A stretch of 47,215 bases of DNA from assembly GCA_036389795.1 (NCBI GenBank), contig DASVWD010000094.1:1-47215 (forward strand), read 5' to 3'. Shown here piece by piece: positions 5,400 to 38,054 of the stretch. The notes under the pieces were generated by a model that made no database searches, was not told where the DNA came from, and saw only the letters and a list, made by a program, of their open reading frames with translations. The position numbers and the translations under genes are program-made. Every line of letters starts with the position of its first letter. The first letter of the stretch is position 1. The stretch comes from Longimicrobium sp. Lineage in GTDB: Bacteria > Gemmatimonadota > Gemmatimonadetes > Longimicrobiales > Longimicrobiaceae.

Positions 5400-6932
5400 C
5401 TACGCCGCCACCGGCTCGCGCTTGGGGCGCGGGAAGAGCGGGTCGCCGCCGGCCACGCTCCAGCCGGAGACGTCCAGCGCCGCCAGCTCGTCCAGCCGCG
5501 GCATCGCGCGGCCCCCGCCCAGGCGCTCCCACAGCTCGCCCATCTTCCCCGGCATGAAGGGGAAGAAGAGCACGCTGATCACCGCCAGCCAGCGCACCAT
5601 CGCGTGCAGCGTGGCGTCCAGCTCGCCCGCCGCGGCGGGGTCCTTCGCCAGCTTCCAGGGCGCCTTCTCGGCCACGAACGAGTTGGCGCGCCACACCAGC
5701 TCGAACGCCGCCGCGGCGCCCTCGTGCAGCAGGTTGGCCCCCATCGCCCGCCGGTAGTCCTCCAGCACGCGCCCGATCTCCCCGTCCTCCGCCGGCGCCG
5801 CCGCGGGGACCACGCCGTCCCGGTACTTCGCCACCATCGAGAGCGTGCGGCTGGCCAGGTTCCCCAGCCCGTTCGCCAGCTCCGCCGTGTAGCGCTCGGC
5901 GAAGCGCTCCCAGGTGAACGAGCCGTCGCTGTCCCAGGGCGCCTCGCGCAGCAGGAAGTAGCGGAACGCGTCGGGGCCGTACTTCTCCGCCGCCTCGGCC
6001 ACGTCCAGCGTCACCCCCGCCGACTTGCTGAAGCGCTCGCCCCCGTACAGCACCCAGCCGTGCCCCCACACCCGCTCCGGCAGCGGCAGCCCGGCGGACT
6101 CCAGCATCGCCGGCCACACCAGCGAGTGCAGCCGCACGATGTCCTTCCCCACCACGTGCAGCTGCGCCGGCCACCACCGCTCCCACTCCCCGTCGGGGTA
6201 GCCGGTGTCGGTGAGGTAGTTCGGCAGCGCGTCGAACCACACCCACGTCCCCTGCGTCTCTCCCGCCACGGGGCGCGGCCAAGGGATCGCCCAGGTGAGG
6301 TGCGCGCGGGTGATGGAGATGTCCTCCAGCCCCTGCTCGATCAGCGCCAGCATCTCGTTGCGCCGCGAGCGGGGCTCCAGCACCTCCGGCGTCTCCGTCA
6401 GCCGCTTCTCGAGGAAGTCGGAGTAGCGCGAGAGGCGGAAGAAGAGGTTGCGCTCCTCGGCCCACTCCAGCTCGCGCGTGGGGTGCAGCACGCAGCGGCC
6501 GTCCTCGATCTCGCTCTCGGTCTTGAACAGCTCGCAGCCGACGCAGTACCACCCCTCGTACGTCTGCTCGTAGAAGTCGTCCGGGCTCCGTTCGTAGATC
6601 CGTTCGATCAGCGCCGCGACGCCCCGCTTGTGGTGCGGCTGCGTGGTGCGCACCCAGCGGTCGTTGGAGACCAGCAGGCGCCGCCACATCCCCTCGAAGC
6701 GCGCCGCCAGCTCGTCCACCAGCTGTTGCGGGGTGATCCCGCGCGCCTCGGCCGCCTGCGCCACCTTCTGCCCGTGCTCGTCCATCCCCATGCAGAAGCG
6801 CACCTCCTCGCCCAGCAGGCGGTGGAAGCGCGCGATCGCATCGGCCCCGATCTTCTCGTACGCGTGGCCGATGTGGGGGTCGCCGTTCGCGTAGTCGATG
6901 GCCGTGGTCAGGTAGAAGCGGCGTCCGCTCAC
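5400..6932 (-). CDS. metG: Methionyl-tRNA synthetase
   Basis: This 510-residue class I synthetase charges tRNA-Met with methionine. The HIGH motif is at residues 20-23 (GDPHIGHAYEK) and the KMSKS loop is RFSKS near residue 300. A zinc-knuckle insert begins CVGCELF and continues with GRCVLHP; EWAEERNLFFRLSRY is characteristic. The C-terminal anticodon-binding helical domain is present, with no appended tRNA-binding domain, so this is the short form. The start is a GTG at 6932: it overlaps the upstream RicT/PSP1 stop as GTGA and gives the usual N-terminus (FYLTTAIDYANG). The overlap implies translational coupling. A terminator follows at 5345-5372. Confidence 0.95.
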   Translation of the reverse strand: MSGRRFYLTTAIDYANGDPHIGHAYEKIGADAIARFHRLLGEEVRFCMGMDEHGQKVAQAAEARGITPQQLVDELAARFEGMWRRLLVSNDRWVRTTQPHHKRGVAALIERIYERSPDDFYEQTYEGWYCVGCELFKTESEIEDGRCVLHPTRELEWAEERNLFFRLSRYSDFLEKRLTETPEVLEPRSRRNEMLALIEQGLEDISITRAHLTWAIPWPRPVAGETQGTWVWFDALPNYLTDTGYPDGEWERWWPAQLHVVGKDIVRLHSLVWPAMLESAGLPLPERVWGHGWVLYGGERFSKSAGVTLDVAEAAEKYGPDAFRYFLLREAPWDSDGSFTWERFAERYTAELANGLGNLASRTLSMVAKYRDGVVPAAAPAEDGEIGRVLEDYRRAMGANLLHEGAAAAFELVWRANSFVAEKAPWKLAKDPAAAGELDATLHAMVRWLAVISVLFFPFMPGKMGELWERLGGGRAMPRLDELAALDVSGWSVAGGDPLFPRPKREPVAA

Positions 6933-7927
6933 TCGGGCCTCCGCGGGGGCGGGGGCGTGCGGGGCCGCCGCGGCGGCCGCTGCGTCTGCGCGGGCGTGGG
7001 GAGCTGCGGGCGCGCCTCCGGCGGGGGCGCGCCCTCGCGCCCCGGCGGCGGCGCGGCCACCGTCTCGGCCTTGAGCTGCTCCAGCCCGATGGTGCGGCGC
7101 TGCCGGCTCTCGTCCTGCAGCGTCACCAGGTTCCGCCAGATGTCGATGGCCACCACCTTCTCGGCGCCCACCACCGTCCGCACCGTCTTCCCCTCGCGGG
7201 GGAAGCGCTTCTTGGCGGCGAGATACGCGTCGTGCTCGTACGTCAGGCAGCACATCAGCCGGCCGCAGGTGCCGGAGATCTGCTGCGGGTTGAGCGAGAG
7301 GTTCTGGTCCTTGGCCAGCTGCAGCGAGATCGGCTTGATCTCGCGCAGCCAGGTGGCGCAGCAGAGCTGGCGGCCGCAGCGGCCCACCCCGCCCAGCTGC
7401 GCCGCCTCGTCGCGCACCCCGATCTGCTTGAGCTCGATGCGCGTGCGGAAGGTCCGCGCCAGGTCGCGCACCAGCTGGCGGAAGTCGACCCGCTTCTCGG
7501 CCGTGAAGTAGATGGTCAGCTTGTTCCGGTCCCACTGCCACTCGGCGTCGCTGACCTTCATGTGCAGGCCGTGCTGCTCCACCAGCTCGCGCGTCTTGCG
7601 GCGCACGCGCTCCTCGTCGGCCCGCAGCACGTGCAGCTGGCGCACCTCGGGGGGCTCGGCGCGGCGCAGCACCACCGCGCCCGCCACGGGGTCGGTGGGG
7701 CCGCACTTCTTGCGCGCGATGCCGCCCAGCGACTTCACGCGGCCCAGGTCGCGGCCGCGCTCCACCTCCACCAGCACCCAGTCGCCCACGCGCAGCGTCA
7801 CGTCGGGCGAGGTGAAGAACGCCCTCCGCACCCCCTTGAAGGAGACTTCCACCAGGAAGCCGGCCTGCTCGGGAGAGGGGAGAGGCTGGATCACCGGAAG
7901 CTCGAGACTCACCGGTTTCGCCTCCAT
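6929..7927 (-). CDS. ricT: PSP1-domain protein (RicT/YaaT-like)
   Basis: The 332-residue protein carries a PSP1 domain at about residues 25-290. The Cys clusters GRCGRQLCC and GTCGRLMCC are those that hold an iron-sulfur cluster in Bacillus YaaT (RicT), part of the RicAFT complex that modulates RNase Y and mRNA processing. The last 50 residues are a Pro/Arg-rich disordered tail (PPRRPRTPPPPRRPE) not typical of the family. In firmicutes this gene also lies near metS, and here it overlaps metG by 4 bases. Whether RNase Y is the partner in this organism is not shown by the window. Confidence 0.85.
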   Translation of the reverse strand: MEAKPVSLELPVIQPLPSPEQAGFLVEVSFKGVRRAFFTSPDVTLRVGDWVLVEVERGRDLGRVKSLGGIARKKCGPTDPVAGAVVLRRAEPPEVRQLHVLRADEERVRRKTRELVEQHGLHMKVSDAEWQWDRNKLTIYFTAEKRVDFRQLVRDLARTFRTRIELKQIGVRDEAAQLGGVGRCGRQLCCATWLREIKPISLQLAKDQNLSLNPQQISGTCGRLMCCLTYEHDAYLAAKKRFPREGKTVRTVVGAEKVVAIDIWRNLVTLQDESRQRRTIGLEQLKAETVAAPPPGREGAPPPEARPQLPTPAQTQRPPRRPRTPPPPRRPE

Positions 7928-7985
7928 CTATGTCCTCGCGACGGGCTTCGCGCCCGCCGCGGGGCCGGTCAATGCAGTCGGGAGG

Positions 7986-8951
7986 TCAGCGGCCGGAGCG
8001 CCACTGTCCCATCCCCAGGTACTTCTTCCACCGCGCCCGGCGCAGCTCCTCCTCGGGAACCGCCCGCAGCTCGGCGAGGTGGCGGACGAGCGCCTCCTTC
8101 ACGCCCGCGGCGGTGGCCTCCCAGTCGGAGTGCGCGCCGCCCGCGGGCTCGGGGACCACCTCGTCGATCACCTCCAGCTCGGCCAGGTCCTCGGCCGTGA
8201 GCCTGAGCGCCTGCGCCGCCTTCTCGCGCTCGTTCCCGCTCTTCCACAGGATCGCCGCGCACCCCTCGGGGCTGATCACCGAGTAGACGCTGTTCTCCAG
8301 CATCAGCACCCGGTCGGCCACCCCGATCGCCAGCGCCCCGCCCGAGCCGCCCTCGCCGATCACCACGGCCACCGACGGAGTCCGGAGCGCCGCCATCTCG
8401 CGCAGGTTGCGGGCGATGGCCTCGGCCTGCCCGCGCTCCTCCGCCCCCAGGCCGGGGTAGGCGCCCGGCGTGTCGATCAGGGTCACGACGGGGCGGCGGA
8501 ACTTCTCCGCCAATTTCATCAATCGGAGCGCCTTGCGGTAGCCCTCCGGGTGGGGCATGCCGAAGTTGCGCCTGAGGTTCTCCTTCATGTCCCGGCCCTT
8601 CTGCTGGCCGATGAGCATGACGGACTCCCCGTCGAGCCGGGCCCAGCCGCCCACGATGCTCGCGTCGTCACGGAACTGCCGGTCGCCGTGCAGCTCCACG
8701 AAGTCGGCGAAGATCATCTCCACGTAGTCGAGCGTGTAGGGGCGCTTGGGGTGGCGGGCCACCATCACCCGCTCGATCGGGGAGAGGTTGCGGAAGGTCT
8801 CCTCTTTCAGCCCCTTCAGCTTGCGCTCCAGCGAGCGCAGCTCGGTGGAGACGTCCAGCCCACGCTCGCGCGCCAGCGTGCGGAGGTTCTGGATCTGCTC
8901 CTCCACCTCGCCGATGGCGCGCTCGAAGTCCAGGTGTGCGACCGTAGCCAA
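7986..8951 (-). CDS. accA: Acetyl-CoA carboxylase carboxyltransferase, alpha subunit
   Basis: AccA pairs with AccD to move the carboxyl group from biotin to acetyl-CoA, giving malonyl-CoA for fatty acid synthesis. The 321-residue length matches the family. The early LDFE box, PYTLDYVE, ELHGDR, the TLIDTPGAYPG segment with GAEERGQAEAIA, and the GEGGSGGALAIG oxyanion glycines are all present. I place the start at the TTG at 8951: it is preceded by GGAGGCAGAAGAG and gives the family N-terminus MATVAHLDFE. The frame remains open upstream into a repeat, which is not coding. No accD is nearby. Confidence 0.92.
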   Translation of the reverse strand: MATVAHLDFERAIGEVEEQIQNLRTLARERGLDVSTELRSLERKLKGLKEETFRNLSPIERVMVARHPKRPYTLDYVEMIFADFVELHGDRQFRDDASIVGGWARLDGESVMLIGQQKGRDMKENLRRNFGMPHPEGYRKALRLMKLAEKFRRPVVTLIDTPGAYPGLGAEERGQAEAIARNLREMAALRTPSVAVVIGEGGSGGALAIGVADRVLMLENSVYSVISPEGCAAILWKSGNEREKAAQALRLTAEDLAELEVIDEVVPEPAGGAHSDWEATAAGVKEALVRHLAELRAVPEEELRRARWKKYLGMGQWRSGR

Positions 8952-30345: not shown

Positions 30346-30685
30346 TGTGCAGCGCGCGAGTCATCCCGGGGACGCTCGGGAGCCGCGCCCGGGGACCGTC
30401 AGGAAACCGGGGAACGCGGAAAAGGCTCTGCGACGTATGCGCCTGGATCGGCGGGAGTCCGATCGAAGGGCTGAGAAGGACAGGACGTCGCTGTTGCGCT
30501 CCGACGGCGCGGCGCAAGCCGGTCGAACGGGGTCCGAAAGGAGCCGGATGATGAATCCGGGGGTCGGGTCGACAGCCCGATGCAGCAGCCTCTCCAGAAG
30601 CCCGTACGGACCGGCTCTTCGTTAGGAAGCCTGTCGAACCAGTAGAGACGCCGCCCGTGCTGCAGCGCGGGTGGCGTCTCGTTTT
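30346..30685 (+). ncRNA. Candidate stand-alone structured RNA, about 340 nt
   Basis: Bounded by the promoter at 30311-30339 and an intrinsic terminator at 30655-30685. No credible ribosome-binding site or protein is seen inside. Stems visible by eye: GATCGG/CCGATC (30446-30464), CCGGAT gatga ATCCGG (30544-30560), and a long-range stem TCGACAG/CTGTCGA (30569-30575 with 30631-30637) enclosing the hairpin GGCTcTTC gtta GGAAGCC. The 5' part has CCCGGGGAC blocks. I compared it by memory with RNase P RNA, tmRNA, SRP RNA, 6S RNA and common riboswitches and found none of their conserved cores. The next gene starts 149 bases past the terminator, so it is not obviously a leader. Confidence 0.45.
30655..30685 (+). 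terminator. Intrinsic terminator of the structured RNA
   Basis: GAGACGCC.gCCCG ... CGGG.tGGCGTCTC is a near-perfect stem closed over a short loop, followed directly by GTTTT. Confidence 0.75.
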
Positions 30686-30833
30686 GCATCCCCGCTTCTC
30701 GTCTCCTCCGCTGCTCCGCGGATCTGGCATCTGCCACGGTTCATGCGTCTCCAGTCCGGGTTTGGCCTCGCGGGCGACCTCAGGGCGCCGGCGAGACGCG
30801 CTGCTGTCGGGGGACGGAATCGGAGGTGGGATC

Positions 30834-32018
30834 ATGCGCGCGCTCTTCGCCCTCGCCGCGGCCGGGCTGGCGGCCGTGGCCGTCGCGTCCGGCTCGGCCG
30901 CGGTCCAGAACCGCACCCTGACCGTCACCCCCGACTCGGCCACGCTGAGCGCCGTCGGGGCCACCGTGCAACTCACCGCCACCGTGCGCGACCGCCGCGG
31001 CGCCGTGATCCAGGCGAGCGGGACCACCTGGACGAGCCTGCAGACCGGCGTCGCCACGGTGAGCTCCACGGGGCTGGTCACCGCGCGCGCCGCGGGCACG
31101 GCGCAGATCGTGGCCACCTGGCGCAGCGCCGCGGACACATCGGTGATCATGGTCCAGGGCACCGCGCCCGCCCCGCCGCCACCGCCTCCGCCCCCTCCTC
31201 CTCCGCCGTCCGGCGGGGTGGTGATCAACGAGTGCGTGGCGCCGGGGCCGGGGTGGATCTGGTGCGACGACTTCGAGCAGGACCGGCTGAGCCGCTACTT
31301 CGAGTTCGTCACCAACAGCGGGAGCTTCTCACGCGCGGCCGGCGTGGGGGTGGCCGACTCGCACGGGATGCGGGCGCGCTGGGGGGTGGCGGGGCAGGTG
31401 GCGGCGGGGTCGCTCAGGGCGGCTTTCGGGCGCACGCCGTCCAGCTACTTCCGCCCGCTGGACGCGGGCACGGCGAACTACCGCGAGATCTACTGGCGGG
31501 TGTACCTGCGTCACGAGCCGGCGTGGACGGGCGGGGGCGGCTACAAGCTGTCGCGCGCCACCGTGCTGGCCGGCTCCAACTGGGCCCAGGCGATGATCGC
31601 CCACCACTGGAGCGGCGGGACCGGGCACAACTACCTGGTGCTGGACCCGGCCTCGGGCACCGACGAGGCGGGGAACCTGCGCACCACCATGTACAACGAC
31701 TTCGCCAACCTGCGCTGGCTGGGCGTGGCCACGGGCACCACGCCGCTGTTCGACTCGGCCCACGTGGGGCAGTGGTACTGCATCGAGACGCACGTGCGGC
31801 TGAACGACGCCGGCCAGGCGAACGGCGTCTTCGAGTTCTGGGTCAACGGCAGCCTCGAGGCGCGCCGGAGCAACCTGAACTGGCTGGGCTCGTACAGCGC
31901 CTACGGGATCAACGCCGTCTTCCTGGAGAACTACTGGAACGACGGCGCCCCCAAGGCCCAGGAGCGCTACTTCGACAACTTCGTCATCAGCACCCAGCCG
32001 ATCGGCTGCGGGGGTTGA
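30834..32018 (+). CDS. Exported Ig-like plus lectin-like (jelly-roll) protein
   Basis: A 394-residue protein from the ATG at 30834, preceded by GGAGGTGGG. After a signal peptide (FALAAAGLAAVAVASGSAA) comes a Big_2 Ig-like domain (LTVTPDSATLSAVGATVQLT, GVATVSSTGLVTARAAGTAQ). A run of 12 prolines is the linker, followed by a C-terminal beta-sandwich of about 250 residues (CDDFEQDRLSRYFEF, REIYWRVYLRHEPAWTG, GQWYCIETHVRLN, GVFEFWVNGSLEARR, RYFDNFVISTQPIGCGG). The last domain resembles concanavalin-A-like polysaccharide-binding or lyase folds; no catalytic set is evident. A surface role in glycan binding is inferred. Confidence 0.78.
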   Translation: MRALFALAAAGLAAVAVASGSAAVQNRTLTVTPDSATLSAVGATVQLTATVRDRRGAVIQASGTTWTSLQTGVATVSSTGLVTARAAGTAQIVATWRSAADTSVIMVQGTAPAPPPPPPPPPPPPSGGVVINECVAPGPGWIWCDDFEQDRLSRYFEFVTNSGSFSRAAGVGVADSHGMRARWGVAGQVAAGSLRAAFGRTPSSYFRPLDAGTANYREIYWRVYLRHEPAWTGGGGYKLSRATVLAGSNWAQAMIAHHWSGGTGHNYLVLDPASGTDEAGNLRTTMYNDFANLRWLGVATGTTPLFDSAHVGQWYCIETHVRLNDAGQANGVFEFWVNGSLEARRSNLNWLGSYSAYGINAVFLENYWNDGAPKAQERYFDNFVISTQPIGCGG

Positions 32019-32043
32019 AAGCGGGCGGATCCGATTGAAAAAG

Positions 32044-32076
32044 ACGAGGCGCGAGTGGGTTCCGCTCGCGCCTCGT
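32044..32076. terminator. Terminator after the Ig/lectin-like gene
   Basis: ACGAGGCGCGAG ... CTCGCGCCTCGT is a 12-base-pair stem followed by TGTGTTTGATG on the plus strand, 25 bases past the stop. It may also serve the small minus-strand gene ending at 32104. Confidence 0.75.
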
Positions 32077-32103
32077 TGTGTTTGATGGAAGTCGTGCGCG
32101 AAA

Positions 32104-32316
32104 TCAGCCTCTCGCGTCGTACCACGCGTTCACGTCGCGCACGATCTGGTCGAGCGCGGCATCCGTCAGGCTGTCGAAGCCCCGGCTGCCGCCGAGTTCC
32201 AGGCGTGCCTCGCCGTCCTGCACCCGCGGCTCGACGATCCAGCGGAAGTGGCCGCTGTCGTCCTCCATCGTGAAACGGAAAAGCCCAACAAAACGCGGTA
32301 GAACTCTGAGACGCAT
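32104..32316 (-). CDS. Small hypothetical protein at the island edge
   Basis: A 70-residue protein. The part from MEDDSGHFRW onward (VEPRVQDGEARLEL, DAALDQIVRDVNAWYDARG) has the GC-rich codon use of the chromosome. The first 16 residues (MRLRVLPRFVGLF) are encoded by the AT-richer side of the composition break near 32280. It is therefore either a complete small gene starting at the ATG at 32268 or 32316, or a gene whose true N-terminus was replaced when the island arrived. I do not recognise the family. Confidence 0.5.
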   Translation of the reverse strand: MRLRVLPRFVGLFRFTMEDDSGHFRWIVEPRVQDGEARLELGGSRGFDSLTDAALDQIVRDVNAWYDARG

Positions 32317-32356
32317 TCACATATCTCTGATCCAGCTCGCGGCCCAACTAGCACTC

Positions 32357-33823
32357 TCATGTGGAAGCGGTTGATTGATTCGCAGTTTCATATGGCTCTT
32401 TAGATCCAGACATTCTGGACAGGATTAAATAGGTGAGTGTCGCTAGCGCAATGCCGGGTAAGAAGGCCTCACGCGGTACGAAGAACGTCAATAGAAAGAC
32501 CGTCGCAACCCCTACTACAGAACTCCATAGCGCTGCCTTTTGTGGCGGGGTGGATTTTAGCAATCCTCCAACCAACCCAGGCACAAACGCGATGAGAAGA
32601 CCAAATGCGGAAGCGAAAAGGTCCACGATATCACGAAGTGTAAAAGCGAAAAGCATTGAAATTAGCGCGACCATCCAGGCGCTCACTTTGACAACTCGCA
32701 ACGACACATCAGACTGCTTCTCGTTGGGAAACTCAGTGCCGGCATGGGCAAGGCGGGCGCGTCTCCTAACCGATTGAACAACGCGAGCAGTCGAAATCGA
32801 GGCTACATTCAAGAACGTATCAGCGGAAGAAAGTACCGCAGCGAAGAAGGCAATGACGACCAGTGGGAAGGTGACATCAGTAGTCAGGAGGCCAATAATG
32901 TCAAGACCAGCGAATTGAGCACTTGAAAGTCCTTCAGCCTTTGCTGACAGTCCCAACAAACCAAAAGCTCCAAAGAAAAAGAAGCTCAATACACCACTAA
33001 GAACAAAACCGAATCTTGCGGCTTCGTCTGTTCGCGCTGTCACTATGCGTTGCCATAGATCAAAACGCACGAGAAAGGTAGGTGCAACGAAGAACAACGA
33101 CCCAACAAAGAAGATGAAACCACCTGATCCCAAGTGAAAGTAACTCTCTGGCAACGCCTTGATGTGTTCGGAAGCACCGTTTACCGAGAGTCTGGCCAAA
33201 AGCAATCCAACACCTATAGAAATGACAACAACCTGAAAGCAATCGGTTATCAGATCGCGTCTCAATCCACCAGTCACGATGTAGAGAGGGATAGAGATGC
33301 CGCCCACAATGGCCGCTACAATCAATATTCCGTGGCCAAGATCGACTCCCCAGAAGAACCTCAGGAAGATCGCAATAGCCACATACTGAGCGGCAAGCAT
33401 CAAGAAGAACACCAGGAGAGTAGCGATCGCAAATAATCCACTAAAGCTCACCCAGCCTTTCGTCGGATACAAGACCTCGAACAACTCGAACAGTGTCGTG
33501 ACTCCCCGCGCCTGGAGCACGCGGCGCACTGGTCCAGCCAGTACTCCCATCATGATTGAGCCCATCAGATACGATATGCCCAACGCGAGCGGCGTAATTC
33601 CTCCCTCATAGCCAAGTTGCGCAACGCCGATGAACATGCCTCCCCCGACGATAGTACCAAGGAGAGACATCGACAGCGTGAACCAACCCGTTTCTTTAGG
33701 TGCAGTAATGAAAACCTGAGTTGGTTCTCCGTTCTCCAAACGTCGGTTTCGCAATCTGCTAACCCCAAACACCAAGGCATAATAGATTGCTATAGTTAGA
33801 CTTAGAAGAACGGGATTGATCAT
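32357..33823 (-). CDS. Sodium:solute symporter (SSS family)
   Basis: A 488-residue integral membrane protein with about 13 helices. The TM1 region TIVGGGMFIGVAQLGYEGG has the unwound glycine stretch of SSS transporters, followed by GISYLMGSIMMGVLAGP. The later LSSADTFLNVASIS corresponds to the helix carrying the second sodium site (S-S-A-D). It imports a small solute, likely a carboxylate, amino acid or sugar, driven by sodium; the substrate is not readable from sequence. Its ATG overlaps the stop of the upstream membrane gene by four bases (33820-33823), so it is the last gene of the cassette. Codon use is balanced, unlike the flanks. Confidence 0.88.
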   Translation of the reverse strand: MINPVLLSLTIAIYYALVFGVSRLRNRRLENGEPTQVFITAPKETGWFTLSMSLLGTIVGGGMFIGVAQLGYEGGITPLALGISYLMGSIMMGVLAGPVRRVLQARGVTTLFELFEVLYPTKGWVSFSGLFAIATLLVFFLMLAAQYVAIAIFLRFFWGVDLGHGILIVAAIVGGISIPLYIVTGGLRRDLITDCFQVVVISIGVGLLLARLSVNGASEHIKALPESYFHLGSGGFIFFVGSLFFVAPTFLVRFDLWQRIVTARTDEAARFGFVLSGVLSFFFFGAFGLLGLSAKAEGLSSAQFAGLDIIGLLTTDVTFPLVVIAFFAAVLSSADTFLNVASISTARVVQSVRRRARLAHAGTEFPNEKQSDVSLRVVKVSAWMVALISMLFAFTLRDIVDLFASAFGLLIAFVPGLVGGLLKSTPPQKAALWSSVVGVATVFLLTFFVPREAFLPGIALATLTYLILSRMSGSKEPYETANQSTAST

Positions 33824-34509
33824 CTCGACCCTCCATCGGTTGACGGAAAATAGTGCGCGTAAGCAAGATATCGTGCGATCTTCAATGCTACATACACCGC
33901 GATTAAGGCGAGCATCTCTCGCTGAAATCCCGAATCCAACTCAGAAGGACCTAACCTTTCAAAGAAAAGGAGGCCAACTAACATAAATCCGGTAGTCAAA
34001 CGCAGGCCTAGAATGCAGTTAGTCGCCCAATAGCCATGATCAAGAGGGGACGCGCCTTGTTGCGCCACAATGTCGCTAGGGCGGCCTTGCGAATGTGGGG
34101 GATCAGATGATGATTTTCGAGGAACTAGCAGGTCCCACCAAGGCACAGTTACCGCGTACGTTGTGAATAGTATATAAAAATTCCACTGCGGCACAAACGA
34201 GAAGACAACGAGAATACCCAAGTAACTGATAAAGAACAGAAGCACGATCATCAGAAGGTGGTTCATCTGTCTCCTCAAATCAACTGTGATAGTTGCAGTC
34301 AGCCAATCGAACACGAAGTAAGTCACGAGCAAAGCCACTCCGAGCCAGTTCTCCCGCGTCAGATGAACAGCTACATCTGTAAGATTTCCTTTTGTATCTT
34401 GGACTTGTGAGACAAACTGAGTTGCGAGGAGCCCAAGGAACAGCGAGTAGAGTGTATTTAATATGATCTGTACTCTCTCTTGGGGGACCGCGAATTTAAA
34501 TGCTCTCAT
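33820..34509 (-). CDS. Six-helix membrane protein of unknown function
   Basis: A 229-residue protein with six predicted helices at about 13-34, 55-75, 84-104, 108-126, 164-185 and 200-220. Examples are ILNTLYSLFLGLLATQFV and HLLMIVLLFFISYLGILVVF. The loop between helices 4 and 5 is polar (VPRKSSSDPPHSQGRPSD). Aromatic and charged residues near the membrane face include WDLLVPRK and VVFSFVPQWNFYILF. It overlaps the genes on both sides by four bases. By analogy with small partners of some SSS permeases it might be an accessory subunit, but it resembles none that I know. Confidence 0.7.
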   Translation of the reverse strand: MRAFKFAVPQERVQIILNTLYSLFLGLLATQFVSQVQDTKGNLTDVAVHLTRENWLGVALLVTYFVFDWLTATITVDLRRQMNHLLMIVLLFFISYLGILVVFSFVPQWNFYILFTTYAVTVPWWDLLVPRKSSSDPPHSQGRPSDIVAQQGASPLDHGYWATNCILGLRLTTGFMLVGLLFFERLGPSELDSGFQREMLALIAVYVALKIARYLAYAHYFPSTDGGSR

Positions 34510-35024
34510 TGCTCCTCTGCGATCTCAACCGCGTGAACCTGTCCAAATAAACGATCGCCAATGCTAAATTCAAGAGTGCAAAACACAGCTGTCCCGAGAC
34601 GACGTATGTTTGTAATGCCCATTGTAGCCTCATGGATCTCGCTGTTCGAGAGTGAGCCGCGAAAGCGCATGGCTACTTCTGCAAAACGAAGACTCGCGTG
34701 GTCACGCCATCTGACAAACTCTTTCCAATTTGCATACTTGGAAACCGATGCGTTCGCACTTAGAACCAACCCGCCAATAAGCACGTATGCCATTTGGGCG
34801 ATGTACAGCGTGGCCGTCGGAGCGGTCACATAGGAAAATACTTCGTGTTCCGTATATGGGTATCTACTTGGCAAGATCATACACCTTAGTTTCAAATTCG
34901 AGATCTTCGCATTGGCTATATACCTGTGTTCTGTTCGGTACAAATCGAGAATCCGCCCAACTTCTTCCTCAGACAGCCTGACAGTCTGATTGTCAGTTTC
35001 AGCAACAGGCTCTAAGCTAATCAT
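34506..35024 (-). CDS. FcoT-like hotdog-fold protein (putative acyl thioesterase)
   Basis: At 172 residues it aligns by eye with mycobacterial FcoT, a long-chain acyl-CoA thioesterase of the hotdog fold. Shared points in order: an E-E-x-x-x-R-x-L-x-x-Y start (EEEVGRILDLY), a following RY-I-x-A, the central hotdog helix with Q-x-A-Y (YIAQMAYVLIG), the S-x-x-x-R-F-R-x-x-L segment (AEVAMRFRGSL), and a final strand pair with LEF...G-x-V. The FcoT Asn before that Gln is Ala here, so catalysis may differ. FcoT-type enzymes release acyl groups from CoA or carrier proteins. It overlaps the 54-residue peptide upstream by 8 bases and the membrane gene downstream by 4. Confidence 0.55.
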   Translation of the reverse strand: MISLEPVAETDNQTVRLSEEEVGRILDLYRTEHRYIANAKISNLKLRCMILPSRYPYTEHEVFSYVTAPTATLYIAQMAYVLIGGLVLSANASVSKYANWKEFVRWRDHASLRFAEVAMRFRGSLSNSEIHEATMGITNIRRLGTAVFCTLEFSIGDRLFGQVHAVEIAEEQ

Positions 35025-35181
35025 AATCCACCGATGCGAAGGCTTCGGTTATCTCACTGGAGCTAAAGTGCCGCTCGGAATTACTCTGGTCAAGACCGAC
35101 GTTTGTATACGAGCCAGCACCTGTGGAATAGAGAGCGATGCCGAATGATTGTCCCCCAAGATAGTTGTTGAGGTCCTTCAT
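35017..35181 (-). CDS. 54-residue peptide leading the cassette
   Basis: It runs from ATG 35181 to TAG 35017. The ATG overlaps the stop codon of the FAD oxidase (ATGA) and the TAG lies inside the start region of the FcoT-like gene, so translation of all three may be coupled. It begins MKDLNNYLGGQSFGIALYST and ends ITEAFASVDYD. It is polar, rich in Ser, Gly and Asn, without a signal or membrane segment. Balanced codon use places it inside the island. It might be a real small protein, a modified-peptide precursor (an LGG stands at 8-10, but the leader would be very short), or the tail of a gene cut by the insertion. No ribosome-binding site is clear. Confidence 0.45.
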   Translation of the reverse strand: MKDLNNYLGGQSFGIALYSTGAGSYTNVGLDQSNSERHFSSSEITEAFASVDYD

Positions 35182-38054
35182 TCCCGCGCCATCGCCAGCA
35201 GCTCGGCGGTGTGGATCGACTTGCGGCCGCCGCAGAAGTCGCCGATCTGGGTGCGGCAGCTGAAGCCGGGGGCCACCACCAGGTCGTCCGGCGCCGCCGC
35301 GCGCACGGCGGGGAAGAGGACGCGCTCGCCGCACGCCTTCGAGACGTCGTAGTGGCCGCGCTCGTAGCCGAACGAGCCCGCCATCCCGCAGCACCCCGAG
35401 TCCAGCACCGTGAACTTCAGCCCCTCGACGCGCGACAGCACCTCGGCCGTGGGGCCCATGCCGACGATCGCCTTCTGGTGGCAGTGGCCGTGGACCACGG
35501 CGCGGCGCTCCAGGCGGCCCGGGCGCCAGTCGGGGAGCGCGGCCAGGAACTCCTCCAGCGTCACCGCCGCGCCGGCCAGGCGCTTCGCCCGCTCGTCGCG
35601 CACCAGGTCGGGGAGCTCGTCGCGGAGCGTGAGGATGCAGCTGGGCTCCACGCCCACGATCCACGCCCCGCGCTCCACCGCGCCGGTCAGCGTCTCCAGC
35701 AGCTCGGTCTGCCGGTCGCGCGCGTAGTCGAGCAGGCCCTTGGAGACGGCCGCCCGCCCGCAGCACACCTGCCGCTCCGGGAGCCGCACCGCGTAGCCCG
35801 CGCGCTCCAGCACCTCCACCGTCGCCCGCAGCGGCCCCGGCTGGAAGAAGTTGTGGAAGGTGTCGTCCAGCAGCACCACCTCCGGCCGCCCGTCCCCCTT
35901 CCTCACCGTCCGCCGCCCGAACCAGCGGCGGAACGGCTCGCGCGCCAGCTCGGGGAGCTTGCGGTCGGGGTGCACGTGCGCGGCCGCCTTGATCAGCCCC
36001 CCCAGGACGCGGTTCCCCAGGTTGGCGAGCCCCGGCGCCAGGCTGCCGGCCTTCGCGAAGTCGTGGATGCGCCCGAAGAAGAGCGCCTCGCGGCTGGTGC
36101 CGTGCACCCGGTGGTGCTGGGCCAGGAACTCGGCCTTGTAGCGCGCCATGTCCACGCCCACGGGACATTCGGTCTTGCACGCCTTGCACTCCAGGCAAAG
36201 GTCGAGCGCCTCCAGCACCTCGTGGCTCCGCATCCCGGGGAGGCTCCCGCGCATCGCCTCGCGCAGCGAGTTGGCGCGGCCGCGGGTGGAGTGCTCCTCC
36301 TCCAGCGTCACCATGAAGGAGGGGCACATCGTCCCCGCGTCCAGCTTGCGGCAGACGGCCATCCCGTTGCACTTCTCCACCGCCACGTCCCACCCCCCCT
36401 CGTCGTAGCGGAACCACGTCTCGGGGGGATGGATGGCGTAGTCGGGCCCGAAGCGCAGGTTGTCGCTCATGCGCTGGTACGGCGGGGTGATCTTCCCCCC
36501 GGGGTTCATCCGCCCTTCGGGGTCGAAGACGGCCTTCACCCGCCGGTGCAGCTCGATCACCTCGGGGCCGAACATCACCGGGAGGAACTCGGAGCGCGAG
36601 AGCCCGTCGCCGTGCTCGCCCGAGAGCGAGCCGCCGAACTCCACCACCAGCTCGGCGACGTCGGCGCCGATGCGCTGCATGCGCTCGCGGTCGTCCCCGC
36701 GCTTGAGGTTCAGGTCCACGCGGATGTGCAGGCACCCCTGCCCGGCGTGGCCGAAGTACCCGGTGGTGGTCCCGTGCCGCTGCACGATCTCCTCGAAGCG
36801 GCGGGTGTAGTCGCCCAGCCGCTCCGGCGGCACCCCGGTGTCCTCGACGAACTCCTGCGGCTTGATGTCCTTGGACGGCGTGGTCAGGTAGAGCAGCCCC
36901 GTGGCCGCCTGGCGCAGCGCCCACGCGGCGTTCTGCTCGGCCTCGGAGAGGAAGACGCCCGCGTGCGGAGATCCGGGGAGCGCGCCCGCCCGCGCGGCGA
37001 AGTCGTGCGCCAGCCCCGCCACCTCGTCCTTCGCCTCGCCCGAGAACTCGCAGAAGAGCACCCCCAGCGCGTCGGGGGCGGCCATGGCGGCGGTGGGGCG
37101 GTAGAGGTGGATCTCCCGCGCGCCCCTGAGCACCCGCGAGTCCACGATCTCCAGGGCGGTGAGATTCCGCTCCTGGAGGATGGCGGGGACGGCGTCCATC
37201 GAGGTGAAGCGCTCGCGGAAGGAGAGGAGCACCAGCGAGCGTGCGGGAGGGACGGGGACCAGCCCCAGCTCGGCCTCGGTGACCGTGGCCAGCGTCCCCT
37301 CGGAGCCGACGACGAGCCGCGCCAGGTTCAGCTCCGGGTCCGCCAGCATCGCGTCGAAGTTGTAGCCCGAGACGCGGCGGGGGATCTTCGGGTAGCGGGC
37401 GAGGACCTCGGCGCGGTGCGGCTCCAGGATCGCCATCACCGCGCGCGCCAGCTCGCCCTCGCGCCCCGGGGCGCCGGCCAGCGCGTCGCGCTTCAGCGCG
37501 GCGAAGTGCGCGCAGGCGCCGTCGTGCAGCACGCAGCGCAGCGAGTGCACGTGGTCGCCCGTCTTGCCGTAGACGAGCGAGCGGGCGCCGCACGAGTTGT
37601 TGCCGATCATCCCGCCCAGGGCGCACTGGCGCAGCGTGGCCGGGTCGGGGCCGAAGTGGAGGCCGTAGGGGGCGGCGGCGCGGTTCAGCCGGTCGAGCCG
37701 GAGGCCCGGCTGCACGCGGGCGCGGCGGCGGTCCGGGTCGATCTCCAGCACCCGGTTCATGAGCTTGCAGAAGTCCAGCACCAGCGCGGCGCCCACGGTC
37801 TGCCCGGCGAGCGCCGTCCCGCCGCCGCGGGGGAGGACGGGGACGCCCGCCTCGGCGGCCAGGGTGACGGCGGCCACCACGTCGTCGTCGTCGCGGGGGA
37901 CCACGACGCCCACAGGGAGGATCTGGTAGAGCGAGGCGTCGGTGCTGTAGAGCAGGCGCGAGTGGGCGTCGAAGCGGACCTCGCCCCGGACGCGCTCGCG
38001 AAGGGCCCGCTCCAGGCGGGCGGCGCGGGCGTCGGGCTGGACGACGGGGAGCAT
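35178..38054 (-). CDS. FAD-linked oxidase fused to Fe-S/CCG domains (YdiJ-like)
   Basis: A 958-residue fusion. Residues about 20-470 form an FAD-binding PCMH domain (VLPRGGGTALAGQTVG, GMIGNNSCGARS, VVGSEGTLATVTEAEL) with the C-terminal FAD-oxidase cap (GHAGQGCLHIRVDLN, GEHGDGLSRSEFL). Then come two Cys groups (CNGMAVCRKLDAGTMCPS and CLECKACKTECPVG) for Fe-S clusters, and two CCG/GlpC-like modules (QVCCGRAAVSKG, GHCHQKAI, LDSGCCGMAGSFG). This is the layout of E. coli YdiJ and related D-2-hydroxyacid dehydrogenases that pass electrons on to quinone. Likely substrates are D-lactate or D-2-hydroxyglutarate; which one is not readable. The native context is GC-rich, and its stop is the island junction. 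Confidence 0.9.
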   Translation of the reverse strand: MLPVVQPDARAARLERALRERVRGEVRFDAHSRLLYSTDASLYQILPVGVVVPRDDDDVVAAVTLAAEAGVPVLPRGGGTALAGQTVGAALVLDFCKLMNRVLEIDPDRRRARVQPGLRLDRLNRAAAPYGLHFGPDPATLRQCALGGMIGNNSCGARSLVYGKTGDHVHSLRCVLHDGACAHFAALKRDALAGAPGREGELARAVMAILEPHRAEVLARYPKIPRRVSGYNFDAMLADPELNLARLVVGSEGTLATVTEAELGLVPVPPARSLVLLSFRERFTSMDAVPAILQERNLTALEIVDSRVLRGAREIHLYRPTAAMAAPDALGVLFCEFSGEAKDEVAGLAHDFAARAGALPGSPHAGVFLSEAEQNAAWALRQAATGLLYLTTPSKDIKPQEFVEDTGVPPERLGDYTRRFEEIVQRHGTTTGYFGHAGQGCLHIRVDLNLKRGDDRERMQRIGADVAELVVEFGGSLSGEHGDGLSRSEFLPVMFGPEVIELHRRVKAVFDPEGRMNPGGKITPPYQRMSDNLRFGPDYAIHPPETWFRYDEGGWDVAVEKCNGMAVCRKLDAGTMCPSFMVTLEEEHSTRGRANSLREAMRGSLPGMRSHEVLEALDLCLECKACKTECPVGVDMARYKAEFLAQHHRVHGTSREALFFGRIHDFAKAGSLAPGLANLGNRVLGGLIKAAAHVHPDRKLPELAREPFRRWFGRRTVRKGDGRPEVVLLDDTFHNFFQPGPLRATVEVLERAGYAVRLPERQVCCGRAAVSKGLLDYARDRQTELLETLTGAVERGAWIVGVEPSCILTLRDELPDLVRDERAKRLAGAAVTLEEFLAALPDWRPGRLERRAVVHGHCHQKAIVGMGPTAEVLSRVEGLKFTVLDSGCCGMAGSFGYERGHYDVSKACGERVLFPAVRAAAPDDLVVAPGFSCRTQIGDFCGGRKSIHTAELLAMARE

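Follow-up and report, generated by a model that had tools for sequence, protein, structure and literature searches.

Proteins of the FcoT fold take part in lipopeptide and beta-amino-acid pathways, and FapR is a hotdog protein that binds malonyl-CoA; permeases of the sodium:solute symporter (SSS) family are in some cases paired with a small membrane partner, as in ActP/YjcH, PanF/YhdT and the DUF4212-type pairs, those partners having about two transmembrane (TM) helices. In beta-amino-acid and isonitrile pathways, the thioesterases SAV606 and CmiS1 have a second activity, the addition of glycine to an unsaturated acyl thioester (PMC11284099); in the SSS protein SiaT, transport is abolished when S342, S343 or D182 is mutated (PMC5931594). 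Here we describe a locus in which the genes for a predicted hotdog protein, a six-TM protein and an SSS protein lie side by side, within a 47,215-nucleotide stretch of Longimicrobium sp. DNA (assembly GCA_036389795.1, contig DASVWD010000094.1), called the window from here on. All three genes are on the minus strand: the hotdog protein (172 amino acids, aa) is encoded at 34506..35024, the six-TM protein (229 aa, outside known families) at 33820..34509 and the SSS protein (488 aa, of a divergent subfamily) at 32357..33823. There is good support for the three as a portable unit that includes a Na+ symporter, which we consider highly probable.

This conclusion is carried by a second copy of the trio. 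When 99 relatives were searched with the 172-aa protein, one weak match was obtained (23% identity, E 1.9e-5), in genome G006 of the same genus. On contig C128 of that genome (L039:9810-12406) a 169-aa hotdog homologue is followed by a 199-aa membrane protein and then by a 486-aa SSS protein, in the order and strand seen in the window, although at a different locus, in a block of ~50% GC located behind a methyltransferase gene and downstream of ptsHI-like genes. An earlier note on this DNA, which did not recognise the association, had left it to be seen whether homologues of its genes are ever adjacent elsewhere; in G006 those of the trio are. The hotdog pair shares 22% identity (BLASTP E 9e-10) and the SSS pair 29% (BLASTP E 2e-25); the six-TM pair remained below significance in BLASTP, and its local alignment score exceeded that of shuffles by 6.9 standard deviations (9.0 for the N-terminal part), beating both the reversed and the SSS-segment controls. 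Since all pairs are homologous yet only 22-30% identical, either the trio has remained linked while diverging for a long time, or it was taken up as a set on two occasions.

Moreover, the 395 genomes sampled in the phylum yielded no third hotdog gene, and 245 genomes no further six-TM copy (G006 itself was not among the matches of that sample), thus neither gene was met without its partners. Scans of genome contigs with P0002 and with the SSS alignment, as well as a viral-contig scan, gave 0 matches. Plasmid searches gave 0 matches for the hotdog and six-TM proteins and a single one for the SSS protein, 25% identical, from Peribacillus and located beside an aminotransferase gene. Literature searches turned up no report of a hotdog/six-TM/SSS gene association.

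The trio lies in a low-GC block of ~2.9 kb (32275..35177, no strand assigned), whose left edge is the stop codon of an oxidase gene and whose right edge is approximate, being drawn from composition. The block has ~47-54% GC in a genome of ~72% GC; per kb, GC is 0.48-0.54 in the block and 0.62-0.79 in the rest of the window, while GC at third codon positions (GC3) goes from 0.99 in the upstream oxidase to 0.50-0.56 in the four frames of the block and back to 0.91 in the small gene downstream. Of 231 windows of 500 bp sampled elsewhere in the host genome, none was below 0.56; in the sampled background, which covers 20 stretches, 3.7% of the 500-bp windows were below 62% GC. Given this drop in GC and GC3, the block is foreign DNA starting at the oxidase stop codon, and the source of the trio is some low-GC donor. 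One could suspect an assembly chimera, in which contaminant low-GC DNA was joined to a high-GC contig, the more so in a draft genome of 285 contigs with 3.75% estimated contamination; however, host DNA flanks the block on both sides, the block breaks into the host locus precisely where a gene ends, other species hold other low-GC genes at that point and the G006 trio is embedded in its own host DNA, and we judge such an artefact very improbable.

The oxidase (35178..38054, minus strand, 958 aa) is a FAD-linked oxidase fused to an FeS/CCG module (YdiJ / GlpC-like; Pfam FAD_binding_4, FAD-oxidase_C, Fer4 and CCG). Between its stop codon and the hotdog gene there is a 54-aa frame (35017..35181, minus strand), which overlaps the former by 4 bp and the latter by 8 bp; hotdog and six-TM genes overlap by 4 bp, as do six-TM and SSS genes, and strong Shine-Dalgarno-like sequences (AGGAG, GGAGG) precede the last two genes. 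These four overlapping minus-strand frames and their balanced composition, unlike that of the flanks, had been described in the earlier note and are confirmed here, and overlaps and foreign composition together bear out its view of one compact operon; its end, given there as 32280, has to be moved, the SSS frame, last of the four, stopping at 32357. In contrast, the proposal that the cassette is four-gene and self-contained is not supported. The 54-aa frame scores as coding under the codon usage of the block (0.076 vs <0 in the five other frames), has no family or homologue in Pfam, NCBIfam, PHROG or 200 genomes, and is absent upstream of the G006 copy, so that three genes recur and the frame is probably the truncated tail of a gene upstream in the donor; possibly it could be a real small gene. 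The block showed no promoter-like site on the minus strand, which weakly suggests that it is probably transcribed with the host oxidase, by read-through from the operon and promoter of the latter. Scans with Rfam, PHROG and the PADLOC anti-phage defence models gave 0 matches in each case.

The 172-aa protein showed nothing convincing in Pfam or NCBIfam, and the hotdog proteins gave only chance matches when searched against the sequences of the PDB. An AlphaFold2 model, of low confidence (predicted local distance difference test, pLDDT, 57), displays the topology E-E-H-E-E-E-E, which is the hotdog order, with a long central helix at residues 68-88. When it was compared with known structures by Foldseek, ranks 1-2 were two structures of Rv0098 (FcoT), with E values of 6.5e-5 and 9.1e-4, and FapR was in rank 3. 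VIA-align placed SAV606 in ranks 1-2 (top Z 10.9) and Rv0098 in ranks 4-5 (Z 10.2 and 10.1), one FabZ tying with them and other hotdogs falling 0.5-2 Z units below. On this low-confidence model the protein is thus a hotdog nearest to Rv0098/SAV606, with many other hotdogs within Z 1-2, and the proposal of a hotdog fold of the FcoT-like type stands as a statement about the modelled fold. Membership of the FcoT family, judged from the sequence, does not: "FcoT-type enzyme" would be an overstatement, because the Pfam profile of the family is unmatched and its active-site motif is not kept, as detailed below. Relative to the FcoT / CmiS1 / SAV606 / ScoD family (Rv0098 of Mycobacterium tuberculosis; PF10862) the window protein is alike in its predicted hotdog fold, its order of strands and helix and its length, whereas its identity to them is 13-18%. 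It also differs in its surroundings, since the acyl-ACP ligase, acyl carrier protein (ACP), nonribosomal peptide synthetase and non-heme iron oxidase genes of the isonitrile cluster (PMC6211224) and of beta-amino-acid pathways (PMC11284099) are absent beside it.

The SSS protein matched PF00474 with an E value of 1.5e-15 and 57.4 bits, against a curated cut-off of 22.8, and is a member of the family by profile, its match to the solved members being weak (E about 2e-5). In a profile alignment with SiaT (5nv9), the Na2 residues S342/S343 correspond to S332/S333 of the window protein, and the Na3 residues D182, S345 and S346 to D194, D335 and T336; the Ser/Thr pair of Na2 in TM8 and the aspartate in TM5 were therefore both found. 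As the Na2/Na3 residues needed in SiaT are kept, the window protein is likely Na+-coupled. It resembles the family (PF00474; SiaT, NIS, SMVT) in its Na2 serines and Na3 aspartate, and departs from it in belonging to a divergent subfamily, of which three members were found in the samples of the phylum. The third one, besides those of the window and G006, is in genome G101 (L046, contig C87, minus strand), where the SSS gene (6915-8348) lies in a low-GC block behind argF, overlaps a 105-aa frame and is immediately followed by a gene for an enzyme dependent on pyridoxal 5'-phosphate (PLP). From the neighbours of these relatives, the PLP enzyme of G101 and the aminotransferase of Peribacillus, there is a weak hint that the solute may be amino-acid-like. 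Separately, the same G101 locus contains at 1008-1142 a near-perfect 135-bp palindrome (97.8%), which could be a hairpin, an element end or an assembly artefact.

Compared with the ActP/YjcH, PanF/YhdT and DUF4212-type pairs, the window likewise has its SSS gene directly beside the gene for a small membrane protein; unlike the partners in those pairs, this one has six predicted helices and no family match, Pfam included, and a hotdog gene is added to the pair.

The most likely reading, to which we give about an even chance, is that of a horizontally acquired Na+-symport module made of an SSS permease, a dedicated six-TM partner and a thioester-handling hotdog protein. The SSS protein would be the permease, coupled to Na+ and carrying a small solute that resembles a carboxylate or an amino acid; the six-TM protein would be its dedicated membrane partner, possibly in a complex with it, and the hotdog protein, being cytosolic, would act on or sense a thioester (of coenzyme A or ACP) made from or into the solute, in the way FcoT/SAV606 deal with acyl thioesters; the three genes would be co-transcribed. 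The part in moving an acyl-derived solute that the earlier note had put forward is likewise a hypothesis.

Several points weigh against this reading. The module is known from two examples, both within one genus. The partner of the symporter is not fixed, because the subfamily member of G101 sits with a PLP-dependent enzyme instead. The six-TM model displays six long helices and is not usable (pLDDT 44, too poor for a fold search), and the hotdog model (pLDDT 57) was built from a two-row alignment. The FcoT profile PF10862 was not matched by the 172-aa protein in hmmscan, nor by anything encoded in its whole genome at E<=1; a scan of 200 genomes from the phylum with this profile gave 0 matches, the control genomes giving none either. 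Finally, the FcoT motif Y-x3-TGH-x-N-x-VE, which stands before the central helix and reads YIRSTGHFNAVE in Rv0098 and YIDDTGHLNSVE in SAV606 (sequences of PDB 5wsy, 5wsx and 2pfc), is not kept: aligned by eye, the window protein has YVTAPTAT (YVTAPTATLYIAQMAY) and the G006 homologue YLSISELT (YLSISELTIGAAQVTQ). FcoT-type catalysis by the 172-aa protein is doubtful because of this replacement of the active-site motif by YVTAPTAT, even if two residues are retained, a Tyr close to the motif and, in the central helix, the Gln (Q77 / Q84).

The altered motif bears directly on another explanation, in which the hotdog protein would not be an enzyme but, like FapR, a regulator or sensor that binds a ligand, gating or signalling for the symporter/six-TM pair. 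Here T67/T70 of the window protein stand where Rv0098 has N74/E77 (by eye, ungapped), and the third rank of FapR in the fold search points the same way. Nevertheless, FcoT/SAV606 enzymes outscored FapR in both aligners, the active sites of hotdog proteins are known to vary, and in the G006 homologue the E77 position is still acidic, so catalysis would be possible there; we regard the sensor as unlikely, at perhaps one chance in five. Less probable still would be a small export or detoxification cassette, in which an acyl group would be taken off or set free by the hotdog protein and the resulting product pumped out by the six-TM/SSS pair. The hotdog protein FlK, a known resistance thioesterase, reached rank 23 in VIA-align, and the site where the block lies also takes genes of the accessory or conflict-cassette type (SUKH, DUF4062, DUF4145 and protein kinase genes, see below); on the other hand, SSS proteins are chiefly importers and the profiles of defence systems were unmatched.

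The 3' end of the oxidase gene is an insertion hotspot for low-GC genes. The oxidase of the window, which matches NF049975 partially and under its cut-off, has orthologues in 9 of 9 sister species. The 500 bp past the oxidase stop have 48-58% GC and unrelated genes in five of the ten genus members, and 68-73% GC in the other five; two of the former five also contain degraded, repeated copies of the 3' end of the oxidase. The search of relatives with the oxidase also returned short extra copies of its 3' end. In G007 (L030, C84:1-7700, minus strand) the oxidase is followed by a SUKH gene, an oxidase fragment (186 bp, 92% identical), a 108-aa gene, a second fragment (220 bp, 93%), a DUF4145 gene, a third fragment (176 bp, 85%) and more low-GC genes. 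In G009 (L028, C7:24000-36000) a 224-aa low-GC gene, a fragment at 1784-1960 (177 bp, 94%) and another gene lie behind the oxidase, while in G001 (L029, C10) the intact oxidase is followed by a DUF4062 gene and then a short truncated fragment, a separate short contig of this genome (L038, C253) bearing two degraded oxidase 3' fragments; in G002 this site is occupied by a small gene and one for a protein kinase. Two isolated remnants of the oxidase 3' end, both far from the oxidase, were seen as well, one in G006 (L099, C86, ~6045-6168) and one in G005 (L100, C230, ~5798-5999), which adjoins a gene (MSDKIKVLFLAADPFRD...) with a relative downstream of the G009 hotspot.

The well-preserved fragments share one border, the oxidase stop codon, and differ in their 5' borders. 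As they end at the stop and start at varied points, their geometry is that expected of paired homologous and illegitimate recombination, a process by which displaced C-terminal arrays are formed at Rhs/VgrG loci (PMC8125069). As in those arrays, old neighbours in G007 and G009 are shifted downstream, each after a degraded 3' piece of the conserved gene; here, unlike there, the role of the conserved gene falls to a metabolic oxidase whose own 3' end is kept, and the cargo consists of separate genes rather than toxin tips. Capture might proceed by recombination at the oxidase 3' end of incoming DNA that carries an oxidase 3' piece plus a new low-GC gene, the newcomer becoming the first gene behind the oxidase, co-transcribed with it, and the older genes being moved downstream, where a decaying oxidase 3' fragment would mark each of them. 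The possibility of an integron origin was dropped, as the SUKH cassette of G007 abuts the oxidase fragment with no attC-like spacer. Literature searches turned up no report of a hotspot behind this oxidase.

Flanking oxidase 3' repeats were looked for around the block of the window, its right edge included, and none was found; for lack of the right-edge fragment, we claim for the window only its position at the hotspot. A tentative possibility, then, is that the oxidase 3' end is a cassette-capture site with no obvious integrase and the trio one of its cargoes, itself a symporter complex of a novel type in which a hotdog protein takes part. The cassettes neighbouring one another at the hotspot are functionally unrelated, which would suit a trio of unrelated cargo travelling together by chance, as would the other partner of the G101 symporter; yet three genes of the same order and approximate sizes are found at two independent loci at 22-30% identity, and chance company appears improbable to us, with odds of roughly one in eight.

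Beyond the block, a small native high-GC gene (32104..32268, minus strand, 54 aa from an inner ATG, GC3 0.91) has a 42% identical relative in G002, on a contig other than that of the G002 oxidase. After it, a terminator-like hairpin with a 16 bp stem (32043..32077, no strand assigned), identified by consensus match only, would close the transcription unit. The operon shares this bidirectional hairpin with a convergent gene on the plus strand (30657-32018), whose product, by eye, has a Big-2-like repeat, a proline-rich linker and a lectin-like C-terminal part.

Taken at its present strength, the locus ties a predicted acyl-thioester protein, FcoT-like in its modelled fold, to a sodium symporter and a six-helix partner as a portable unit, and its operon offers a defined setting for the study of an SSS permease and its putative accessory subunit in the membrane. 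The hotspot, which lies outside the coordinates of the earlier note, is a separate result and perhaps of greater interest: with a geometry resembling the one described for Rhs/VgrG loci, it shows, in a high-GC genus that has been little studied, how foreign genes can settle at the end of a metabolic gene.

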